A stretch of 64,000 bases of DNA from Geovibrio ferrireducens (GTDB taxonomy: Bacteria; Chrysiogenota; Deferribacteres; Deferribacterales; Geovibrionaceae): the NCBI RefSeq assembly GCF_026226615.1, contig NZ_JAJAPB010000008.1, forward strand, positions 1-64,000, given 5' to 3'. Each line of letters starts with the position of its first letter. The first letter of the stretch is position 1. A model generated the notes under the pieces. It was given only the letters and a program-made list of their open reading frames with translations, was not told the origin of the DNA and ran no database searches. The translations under genes were made by a program, and so were the position numbers. This document shows, in pieces, positions 3,901-6,843 of the stretch.

Positions 3901-4689
3901 ATGGAAAGTTTTATAAGAAAATTAGGCCGTAATTTTATTGATCTTGCCGTTTTTTTTCACGGTTTCACAATCTTCTCAAACAAGGTTATAAAAACCTTTT
4001 TTAAGCTTAAGTTATTTAATCCTGCTGTAGCTTTGGTCTTTGTCAGGCAGATATATTTTACGGGCGTTCAAATCCTTCCTGTTTATATTGTATTATCGCT
4101 CATAATCGGCGTTGCCATGGTGGGTTCGCTGATGCAGGCTGCGGATCTTGTCGGCGGTATAGACCAACTAGGAAGAATAATGGTGGTAATATCCTTCAAT
4201 CAGATAGCCCCTCTTGTTACATCAATACTACTTGCCCTCAGGTCGGCTACTGCTGTCACTGCGGAAATATCATTAATGAAGATGAACAGAGAGATAGACA
4301 CCCTAAAGTCGCTCTCGATAGATCCTTTTGAATATCTCTACCTGCCCCGCATAGCCGCTGGAGTTATATGTATGATGGCGCTCTCCACTATATTTGTATG
4401 TGTGTCTCTGCTCGGCGGTTACTTCATTCTCAGCTTCCTCCAGGACATGTCGCTGGACTACATGCTTACCACTATATTTGATAATCTGGAACTTTTTGAT
4501 ATTATCGCCTTTCTTATAAAGGTATTCTTCCTCGGCTTCGCCCTGATGAGTATACCTATATACACCGCACTTGAAACCAAAGAGGCCGTCACGGAAATAC
4601 CCATCGCCCTCCTCAGAGGAATGATGAGGCTGTTTTACGCCTTCATAATCATACAGATATTCACCGTTATGCTGGGGATGTACATATGA
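3901..4689 (+). CDS. mlaE: MlaE-family lipid ABC transporter permease
   Basis: Inner-membrane permease (262 residues, normal family length) of the Mla system, which moves phospholipid between inner and outer membrane. The sequence has the MlaE pattern: an amphipathic N-terminus, a RQIYFTGVQILPVYIVLSLI segment near residue 50, and five or so hydrophobic segments ending at the C-terminus. The ATG at 3901 gives the family-like N-terminus (GRNFIDL) but has no Shine-Dalgarno, and a perfect -10 box ends five bases upstream. Its stop overlaps the next start as ATGA, so the genes are translationally coupled. The order mlaE, ATPase position, mlaD, lipoprotein follows the usual operon, except that the ATPase is degenerate. 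No mlaC or mlaB is present here. Confidence 0.9.
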   Translation: MESFIRKLGRNFIDLAVFFHGFTIFSNKVIKTFFKLKLFNPAVALVFVRQIYFTGVQILPVYIVLSLIIGVAMVGSLMQAADLVGGIDQLGRIMVVISFNQIAPLVTSILLALRSATAVTAEISLMKMNREIDTLKSLSIDPFEYLYLPRIAAGVICMMALSTIFVCVSLLGGYFILSFLQDMSLDYMLTTIFDNLELFDIIAFLIKVFFLGFALMSIPIYTALETKEAVTEIPIALLRGMMRLFYAFIIIQIFTVMLGMYI

Positions 4690-5213
4690 CAAGCACATTT
4701 ATATATTACACCAGCGAACAGCAGAAGGAACAATGGCTGGCGAAAATCCTTGAGTTCACCGAACACGAACGGATAGGCATAGTCACAGGCAGGCTCCCCG
4801 TAATAGGAAACCTTTCCGTTTTCGAAAACATCATGCTTCCTGCCAGCTACCACTTCAACCTCAGCCTCAGGGAAGGCAGAAAGATGATCGAAAACGACCT
4901 CAAGCGTCTGGGCATTTCCCATGTGATAGACACAAGGCCTGACTTTCTCACTGATTATGAAAGGCTTCTGGTAAAATATCTGCAAGTTACATACCTGCAG
5001 CCTAAGTGGATAATCATAGTCAGCCCTAGAAGAATGTACGCCGCAGAATACGAAGAGAAGTTCAAAGATTTTTTGCGTTGTGAAACAAGGGATAATTCGG
5101 TTATTATCGATCATATAAACCACAGATATCTGTTTCAGGATCTCGAAAACTACACGGAGCTGGATTTTGAATTATGGCTGGAAATAAATTTGCGAACCTC
5201 GAACTCAAAGTAG
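4686..5213 (+). CDS. Degenerate MlaF-like ABC ATPase (pseudo-ATPase)
   Basis: 175 residues where the MlaF ATPase is expected, between mlaE and mlaD. The stretch RIGIVTGRLPVIGNLSVFEN matches the part of an ABC ATPase just after the Q-loop, and RLGISHVIDTRPDFLTDYER followed by QPKWIIIVSPRR matches the helical domain, signature and Walker B region. The key residues are gone. There is no Walker A, and only about 30 residues precede the Q-loop region. The signature LSGGE is LTDYE, and the Walker B Asp-Glu is Val-Ser. The reading frame is intact, starts in an ATGA overlap with mlaE and overlaps mlaD by 40 nt, so it is a maintained gene rather than an obvious wreck. I infer a structural or regulatory partner of MlaE that cannot hydrolyse ATP alone. 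An active ATPase would have to be encoded elsewhere. Confidence 0.75.
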   Translation: MTSTFIYYTSEQQKEQWLAKILEFTEHERIGIVTGRLPVIGNLSVFENIMLPASYHFNLSLREGRKMIENDLKRLGISHVIDTRPDFLTDYERLLVKYLQVTYLQPKWIIIVSPRRMYAAEYEEKFKDFLRCETRDNSVIIDHINHRYLFQDLENYTELDFELWLEINLRTSNSK

Positions 5214-6157
5214 GGCTTTTTGTTATTATATCAATCGCCCTTATGGCAGCGATAATTTTAACCTTTGCCATAAAGAAAAAACTGTTCATGCCAAAGATAA
5301 ATGTCTCCATCCTTACGGATTCGGGTGACGGAATAACCAAAAGCATGCCTGTTAAATACGCCGGGTTCACTATTTCAAGGGTATACGAGGTGGAGCTTAT
5401 GGATGACGGCAACGTTGTGCTCCACACCAGAATCCCCAAGCAGTACACCAAATGGATCAGGCAGGACTCCGTTGCCAAGCTTACATCCCAGAACATCATC
5501 GGTTCCAGCTTCATAGTTTTCAGCGGCGGTTCCGCGAACTCACTGGAAATAACCGACGGAACATCCTTCAACCTCACCCGTGAAGGCGGGCTGGCCGCAC
5601 TGATGGAACAGGCTCAGCCTGTTATTGAGGATATTAAAGAGATCGTGAACAATGTTGCGAACATTACGCAGACAATTGAGGATCAAAGCGAAAATATAAA
5701 CAGATTTTTCGGCGGTCTGGGTGATGTCGGGGACGATCTGCATAATAAAACGGGCTCTGTAGGCTACCTCGTCCGCAGCGACTATATAAAGGATGAGGTT
5801 AAAAATATTGTCGGGCGCATAGAAGTTCTCCAGATGCAGCTGAACGAAATAGCGGACAATGTGAATCTAAAAGTTGAACGCACGGATGAATCCATAGACA
5901 AGCTCAACAGCGCCCTCCAAGCCTTTAAGGAAGGGGTGCAGTCGATTGAGAAAGCTGTGGAAAGCGCTCAGCCAACCATAGACAATGCCAATAAAATATC
6001 GGGCGATGTTGCGGAGGCGACAGACAACATAACCGAGATTAAAAATCAGGCGGATTCCATACTCAAAACCTCAGACAGAATCCTCTACAACCTTGAGCAG
6101 AGGTGGCCTTTTAATGACGGTTCAGTGATTACCGGGGAAAAGGTGAAACTGCCATGA
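5174..6157 (+). CDS. mlaD: MlaD-family MCE-domain substrate-binding protein
   Basis: 327-residue periplasmic protein anchored by one N-terminal membrane segment (about residues 12-32, KVGLFVIISIALMAAIIL). A single MCE domain follows (about 37-125; includes KYAGFTISRVYEVEL and SQNIIGSSFIVF). The C-terminal third is a long helical/coiled-coil region with repeated heptad-like patterns. MCE proteins form hexameric rings that pass lipids between the permease and the periplasm. The ATG at 5174 lies inside the preceding gene (40-nt overlap, different frame) and gives the typical start directly before the membrane segment. The stop overlaps the next gene as ATGA. The C-terminal extension is longer than in E. 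coli MlaD and resembles MCE proteins with needle-like tails (inference). Confidence 0.9.
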   Translation: MAGNKFANLELKVGLFVIISIALMAAIILTFAIKKKLFMPKINVSILTDSGDGITKSMPVKYAGFTISRVYEVELMDDGNVVLHTRIPKQYTKWIRQDSVAKLTSQNIIGSSFIVFSGGSANSLEITDGTSFNLTREGGLAALMEQAQPVIEDIKEIVNNVANITQTIEDQSENINRFFGGLGDVGDDLHNKTGSVGYLVRSDYIKDEVKNIVGRIEVLQMQLNEIADNVNLKVERTDESIDKLNSALQAFKEGVQSIEKAVESAQPTIDNANKISGDVAEATDNITEIKNQADSILKTSDRILYNLEQRWPFNDGSVITGEKVKLP

Positions 6158-6843
6158 GAAAGCTTGTAATCTTAACAGCCCTTTTCATAGCAGTGACAGC
6201 ATGCGGGCAAAAACAGAAAAGCTCCTCCGAATACATATATGCGGCCTCGCTGCATAAAAATTACTCGTCATATTACTACAAGGGGCAGCAGAAAATGGCT
6301 GACATCACCTTTTATAAAGCTCAGGATGCTTTTCAGCGCATGGATTCCGTGTGCAACGTATCACGCCTTTATATAACCAGATATGCGCTGGCGGAACAGG
6401 ATGCCCTGCCTGCTGACCTCGCCAAGGCATCGGCTTATGCCGAACTGGGTGACTGCCCTGATGAAAAGCTCATCACAGCCTTTCTCTCCGGGGATAACCT
6501 GACCGACACGGGCAGTCTGGAAAAGCCGTTTTCCCTGATCGCAGAGTTTAAAAGGACAGGCAAATATTCAGCCCTTATCTCATACGCAGAGGACGGGGAC
6601 ACCATGAGCGACTCAACGGTCAGACTTTACAGACTGGTGGCCGCTGCGATAACCGATACCGAACCGGAAAAAGCCTATGAACTTGCGGAAAAAGCAAGGG
6701 TCATTGACAGTACATACGGATGGACACTGGGGCTCTCCAGAGACCTTGACATAATGATTAAAGCTTACGGAAAACTTGGCAGGGACACTTCCGCTCTCAT
6801 TGAGAGAAAAAGGCTCATAGACGCAAAACTGACTAACAATTAA
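6154..6843 (+). CDS. Lipoprotein of the mla operon, helical repeat type
   Basis: 229 residues with a lipoprotein signal: basic start, hydrophobic stretch, lipobox VTAC with Cys17 as the acylated residue. The mature part is rich in Ala, Tyr, Asp and predicted helix, with segments such as EPEKAYELAEKARVIDS that resemble a TPR helix pair. I do not recognise a named family. It is not clearly the PF03886 auxiliary lipoprotein common in other MCE operons. The start is in an ATGA overlap with mlaD, so it is co-translated and probably works with MlaD at the envelope, for example as an outer-membrane partner (inference). Confidence 0.7.
   Translation: MRKLVILTALFIAVTACGQKQKSSSEYIYAASLHKNYSSYYYKGQQKMADITFYKAQDAFQRMDSVCNVSRLYITRYALAEQDALPADLAKASAYAELGDCPDEKLITAFLSGDNLTDTGSLEKPFSLIAEFKRTGKYSALISYAEDGDTMSDSTVRLYRLVAAAITDTEPEKAYELAEKARVIDSTYGWTLGLSRDLDIMIKAYGKLGRDTSALIERKRLIDAKLTNN

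Follow-up and report, generated by a model that had tools for sequence, protein, structure and literature searches.

A truncated ABC nucleotide-binding domain, predicted to be catalytically dead, in the mlaF position of a divergent Mla operon from Geovibrio ferrireducens

The gene found between mlaE and mlaD in a divergent Mla-like operon of Geovibrio ferrireducens encodes a protein, referred to as X, which structure prediction identifies as an ABC nucleotide-binding domain (NBD) devoid of the N-terminal beta subdomain and of the P-loop. Judging by its sequence and model, X would be incapable of binding or hydrolysing ATP; its pattern of substitution indicates that it is kept intact by selection and is not decaying. 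We consider it probable that X is a docking subunit without catalytic activity in a Mla-like MCE lipid conduit that operates independently of ATP. The DNA under study, hereafter the window, is a stretch of 64,000 nucleotides (assembly GCF_026226615.1, contig NZ_JAJAPB010000008.1, positions 1-64,000, forward strand) and the relevant features are listed below.

3901..4689, + strand: mlaE2, a divergent MlaE-type permease of 262 aa (Pfam MlaE, PF02405, E 2.3e-45).
4261..4350, + strand: residues 121-150 of MlaE2, AEISLMKMNREIDTLKSLSIDPFEYLYLPR, the coupling-helix region, which in MlaE is where the NBD docks (MlaE1/MlaE2 alignment and PMC7790496).
4686..5213, + strand: X, a truncated and apparently catalytically dead ABC NBD of 175 aa in the mlaF position.
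4692..4724, + strand: X residues 3-13, the strand that precedes the P-loop, followed by the short turn TSEQQ at the Walker A site (AlphaFold2 secondary structure, superposition and motif table).
4773..4853, + strand: X residues 30-56, IGIVTGRLPVIGNLSVFENIMLPASYH, comprising the former Q-loop strand and the docking segment, from which the Q is absent.
4947..4961, + strand: X residues 88-92, LTDYE, degenerate signature motif (motif table).
5007..5027, + strand: X residues 108-114, WIIIVSP, degenerate Walker B with both Asp and Glu lost (motif table).
5174..6157, + strand: mlaD2, 327 aa, a single MCE domain and a long helical region (Pfam MlaD, PF02470, E 1.1e-9).
6154..6843, + strand: lipoprotein gene at the end of the operon, 229 aa, signal ending in AVTACG (position conserved within the phylum).

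The initial annotation of this DNA, made from the letters alone, had described the X frame as intact and tightly coupled on both sides, and this description holds: the ATG of X overlaps the mlaE2 stop codon by 4 nt and its 3' end shares 40 nt with the start of mlaD2. The PF02405 and PF02470 matches place a MlaE-family permease gene and an MCE-domain gene beside X. A profile built on MlaE2 finds a solved MlaE structure (2.9e-32), and the Pfam MlaE score of MlaE2 is 155 bits versus 275 bits for the canonical paralogue of the same genome. The lipoprotein encoded at the end of the operon displays a faint resemblance to BamD (2.3e-4) and no other family match, a PqiC-like match being absent in Pfam and NCBIfam; it is a possible outer-membrane anchor.

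The Pfam search of X retrieved no ABC family, ABC_tran being absent even at an E-value of 10, and its resemblance to ABC families is faint in NCBIfam and PDB sequence searches, with phmmer against the PDB returning ModC (2onk, 7.5e-5). A profile of 25 X members matches MacB at 3.5e-10, all the matches listed being ABC ATPases. An AlphaFold2 model of X, obtained from an alignment of 25 relatives, reached a pLDDT of 90.2 and a pTM of 0.86. When this model was submitted to Foldseek, 423 PDB matches were found at E<=1e-3 and the 50 matches listed were all ABC ATPases; VIA-align superposed residues 1-163 on residues 34-223 of E. coli MlaF (6xbd_I) with a Z-score of 14.7, 159 aligned positions and 2.6 A. 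The structure prediction and structural search proposed at the outset thus returned ABC NBDs. A second AlphaFold2 model, made for a far relative of 157 aa from another phylum with an alignment of mostly other sequences that included the window protein, gave a pLDDT of 92.2 and a Z-score of 13.9 against MlaF 6xbd_I, the PDB matches listed again being all ABC ATPases. The RecA-like core and the helical subdomain are present in both predicted models. The N-terminal, adenine-binding beta subdomain is absent from X, the alignment with MlaF beginning at residue 34 of the latter. The strand preceding the P-loop is kept as residues 3-8 of X and the P-loop itself is reduced to a short turn. The first reading of X as an ABC ATPase from the Q-loop onwards was therefore correct as to the ABC similarity, supported by the fold, Foldseek and the MlaF superposition, and placed its beginning too late, since the match starts ahead of the Q-loop at the pre-P-loop strand.

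Walker A, the Q-loop Gln, the signature and Walker B are all lost or degenerate in X. The Walker A consensus GxxxxGK[ST] was reported missing, and indeed occurs nowhere in X; in all truncated X proteins of the motif table a short turn stands in its place. The Q-loop Gln is gone in the alignment with full-length relatives. LTDYE was found in place of the signature at residues 88-92 as announced, with LNDFE, LNEFE, CSNLE and others in relatives, and the substitution of VS for the Walker B DE was likewise verified (IIIVSP, residues 109-114). The Walker B Glu is missing in the truncated relatives and the Asp is kept in some of them (IDRP), while the switch-His position holds His in the window (VIIDH) and Tyr or other residues in many relatives. 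In ABC proteins each ATP site is shared between two NBDs, one contributing Walker A and the other the signature. Since X possesses neither, an X homodimer or an X-MlaF heterodimer would hold no complete ATP site. A frameshift hiding an upstream Walker A was considered and rejected, as mlaE2 fills the upstream DNA and Walker A is missing family-wide. The same Walker-A-less, degenerate form recurs in the relatives examined across the phylum and beyond, which disposes of a sequencing error.

The genome of the window also contains a canonical system, mlaE1-mlaF1-mlaD1, on a separate contig and with intact GPSGTGKS, LSGGM and DEP motifs. A canonical MlaF is encoded in every genome carrying X. The initial annotation had suggested a search for a stand-alone mlaF; the gene is present elsewhere in the genome, but sits in a second complete mlaEFD operon. 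At one such canonical locus (L033:3854-5404), MlaD1 is 516 aa long and its C-terminal region may form an outer-membrane barrel like that of Veillonella.

Within the phylum, X is present in 38 of 51 genomes, which are exactly the 38 that possess MlaE2, the other 13 being devoid of both. The order mlaE2-X-mlaD2-lipoprotein is constant in the phylum loci that were read, the named carriers belonging to the Deferribacterales (Seleniivibrio, Denitrovibrio, Calditerrivibrio). The dN/dS of X lies between 0.03 and 0.11 for close relatives, some pairs being close to saturation in dS. The X frame is open in all the phylum genomes read except one, a Denitrovibrio MAG (G007:C12:137377-137892; loci L012 and L066) in which a single in-frame TAG is found at codon 143; this frame can otherwise be aligned to its end. 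X was found only in this operon type among the loci examined, and none of the plasmid records contained it. The statement that the gene is maintained is thus upheld by the low dN/dS and the perfect co-occurrence with mlaE2; the accompanying term "remnant" undersells what is an ancient and conserved family of proteins. Within it, conservation is strongest in the former Q-loop and permease-facing segment, residues 30-56. Trp164, invariant in Deferribacterota, was discarded as a candidate functional residue, since the overlapping start of mlaD2 imposes it in the window (aTGG, codon 164 at 5175). In two class-level relatives with genomes of 1.3 Mb (L064 and L065, from G043 and G044), MlaE2 scores only 35-40 Pfam bits with X and MlaD2 in place.

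The helix between TM2 and TM3 of MlaE contacts MlaF (PMC7790496). The corresponding segment of MlaE2 generally keeps a pattern resembling E..M..E..L...ID...Y..PR, less so in L064 and L065, and that of the window still resembles the segment of MlaE1. Homology and conservation together suggest that X may dock on the coupling helix of MlaE2. One genome is informative in this respect (L245, G1126:C20): mlaE2 is directly followed by mlaD2 with a short gap between them, X was not found anywhere in the genome, and the coupling-helix segment of this single case no longer shows the pattern and is interrupted by a gap of 4 residues, a canonical MlaE being kept in the same genome. Decay of the coupling helix in the absence of X fits, in this one instance, docking of X and not energisation by MlaF in trans.

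The distribution of the operon beyond the phylum was established with a pattern scan of 84,980 genomes based on a 12-row X alignment and with permease-profile searches covering three other phylum-level groups. A truncated X occurs in the same operon in three phylum-level groups besides its own. In the group of MAG LacPavin (labelled Deltaproteobacteria), a true MlaE2 was found in 13 of 395 genomes, all with a truncated X. In that of MAG SulCav (labelled Helicobacter cetorum), 22 of 347 genomes match: the truncated X is present in 20 (L224-L243), at one locus (L244) the permease is partial and is accompanied by neither X nor mlaD2, and L245 has mlaE2 and mlaD2 with X missing. Matches in the Nitrospirae group amount to 60 of 346 genomes; among the 30 loci that were read, Walker A is intact in 20, the protein is full-length but degenerate in 8 and X is truncated in 2. 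Two irregular loci were also noted, one with about 2 kb between X and mlaD2 (L131, a MAG labelled Helicobacter cetorum SulCav), the other with mlaE2 in two frames and an X frame running on into mlaD sequence (L130:2877-4119, Deltaproteobacteria MAG USDV), a copy that looks broken or fused.

These loci form a graded series in one operon slot, from an intact Walker A through full-length degenerate forms and truncated X to no ATPase gene at all (L245, one genome). The relatives with an intact Walker A display GPSRSGKS and LNQGE, with a Walker B that is usually DD or DS and not DE. At the catalytic Glu, those members of L196-L222 (Nitrospirae group) in which Walker A is intact mostly read DDP or DSP and DEP only in L220; even these ATPases may hydrolyse ATP poorly. 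The full-length degenerate relatives have lost both the signature and the catalytic Glu, and their Walker A ranges from GGGGSGKT and APVASGKS to unrecognisable sequences (TRSEYENR, FHSDIEKN). A segment close to [LI][IL]SN[LM]xVxxNxxLPxxYH is common to all members of the series. In a tree built from permeases only, the mlaE2 family is separated from canonical mlaE (100/100), the truncated forms together make up a single clade (100/99), and a different branch contains the full-length degenerate forms (93/91); this tree contains a few long branches and its deepest joins are less sure, and a larger, quick tree was also made. With the truncated forms in a single clade, truncation seems to have happened once, long ago; two branches show the most advanced catalytic decay. 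MlaE2 permeases that accompany a truncated ATPase obtain the lowest Pfam MlaE scores. Searches with the X profile score best with MacB and LolD, and a tree built on the 121 columns in common does not discriminate between the possible origins of X (AU p 0.84 for X with LolD/FtsE/LptB-type ATPases). The operon position and the permease tree lead us to lean towards MlaF, as against a LolD/MacB-type ATPase, as candidate ancestor of X.

In two of the outside groups, 32 truncated-X loci (L164-L176 and L224-L243) have no ATG, GTG or TTG at the conserved start. An element composed of GAGGTG, five bases and ATT is nearly invariant in these loci and lies inside the end of mlaE2. The mlaE2 codons at these positions are GAG in 32/32 (52% overall in these genes), GTG in 31/32 (27%) and TTA or TTG in 32/32 (37%), in rows that are related, so that the codon counts are not independent. 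There seems to be a strong synonymous constraint on the mlaE2 codons overlapping the start of X. ATT is known as the start codon of infC, and the arrangement suggests that X is translated from an ATT start preceded by a ribosome-binding site.

The mechanism proposed for the window system can be summarized as follows. X would be a pseudo-MlaF that has lost nucleotide binding and hydrolysis and has kept the fold and the permease-docking surface, within a second, divergent Mla/MCE system composed of MlaE2, X, MlaD2 and the lipoprotein. A pair of X would sit under the MlaE2 dimer through the coupling helices and hold the permease fixed, folded and lipid-conducting, with a MlaD2 hexamer and its long helical part above the dimer. 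No ATP would be needed for lipids to pass between inner membrane and MlaD2 tunnel; they would move down a gradient of concentration or affinity, on a route towards an outer-membrane lipoprotein, and ATP-driven transport would be left to the canonical mlaEFD elsewhere in the genome. In the Mla system, lipid transfer from MlaD to MlaC is possible without ATP (review PMC10212509), and an ATPase is missing from the Pqi and Let systems, which are likewise of the MCE type (PMC12436622). Between the needs for an ATPase in trans and a passive function, both raised at the outset, passive function is favoured. The prediction of a P-loop-less ABC NBD fold for two far-apart X members, modelled mostly from different sequences, counts for the conduit, as do the lack of a complete composite site, the low dN/dS, the 38/38 co-occurrence, the multi-phylum operon, the single truncated clade and L245. 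On a broader scale, we lean, with more reserve, towards a branch of ABC-type MCE transporters in at least four phylum-level groups having abandoned ATP stepwise, the NBD remaining only as structural support of a passive lipid conduit. Catalytic residues would have been lost first, then Walker A, then the nucleotide subdomain and, in one case, the NBD itself, with the permease and the MCE tunnel remaining under selection.

The principal alternative is that canonical MlaF energises MlaE2 in trans, X being a placeholder, an assembly factor or a competitive regulator taking turns with MlaF at the coupling helix. Mycobacterial Mce systems employ a MceG encoded elsewhere and offer an analogy. The canonical MlaF found with X in every genome agrees with this explanation, as does the MlaE1-like coupling helix of the window lineage, which also counts against an ATP-free conduit, since canonical MlaF might still bind there. 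We nevertheless regard energisation in trans as less likely: the coupling-helix motif should have persisted in L245, the only genome with MlaE2 and MlaD2 but no X, where a canonical MlaE is retained, the MlaE2 permeases scoring lowest in Pfam are those with a truncated ATPase, and the full-length relatives display stepwise loss in the very same slot.

X might instead be a regulator or scaffold unrelated to transport energetics, binding for example another cytosolic protein or coupling the operon to another process. A long history as a separate, folded, non-catalytic protein would suit such a role, which is made rather improbable by the location of the most conserved stretch in the former Q-loop, facing the permease, and by the restriction of X to this operon. 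That X is a decaying pseudogene or an assembly error is hardly credible. The in-frame TAG of G007 speaks for it, against open frames elsewhere, dN/dS values of 0.03-0.11, several phyla and a confidently predicted fold; the pseudogene reading is ruled out by dN/dS and spread. The non-catalytic docking subunit of a passive conduit remains our preferred reading of X.

In the case of Mla, the role of ATP in MCE lipid transport, its necessity included, has been a matter of dispute, as has the direction of lipid movement. A natural MlaE-MlaD system whose sole NBD appears incapable of using ATP offers a direct test of what a permease and an MCE ring do alone, and its graded relatives show how an ABC transporter can turn into an ATP-free conduit. 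In a survey of Mla across bacteria, Grasekamp et al. considered MlaEFD with a long MlaD as ancestral; MlaF was detected via its ATPase family and synteny, and its annotation was called uncertain (PMC10665443). Since X escapes Pfam ABC_tran, X operons would be read as MlaDE without F in such surveys, a warning that those based on ABC_tran miss these operons. No description of a dead NBD in a Mla/MCE system was found among the open-licence papers.

The closest known counterpart of X is MlaF of E. coli MlaFEDB (6xbd, 7ch7), alike in fold and in gene position between mlaE and mlaD, with a similar pattern in the permease-facing segment (V-x-x-N-[IV]-x-[LF]-P). X differs from it by the absence of MlaF residues 1-33, Walker A, the Q-loop Gln, LSGGQ and the Walker B Asp and Glu, and is about 14% identical. 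The Veillonella parvula MlaEFD system (PMC10665443) shares with the window operon the mlaE-mlaF-mlaD order, a long MlaD and the lack of an adjoining MlaA, MlaB or MlaC gene, but its MlaF is described as close to that of model diderms, whereas X appears dead. Brucella Mpc (MpcEFDA, PMC12436622) similarly combines MlaE, MlaF and MlaD with a terminal lipoprotein; MpcF is however described as a conserved ABC ATPase, and the window lipoprotein is without a PqiC-like match. PqiAB and LetAB are MCE lipid conduits without ATPase, as proposed for the window system, but the PqiA and LetA permeases are not of the MlaE type, whereas the window system would be an ABC permease keeping a dead NBD. CFTR, TAP, MRP1 and CydDC, finally, have one degenerate nucleotide site and keep nucleotide binding and one working site. 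Like X, they have retained degenerate catalytic motifs through evolution; unlike them, the sole NBD gene of the window operon would appear to encode no site at all.
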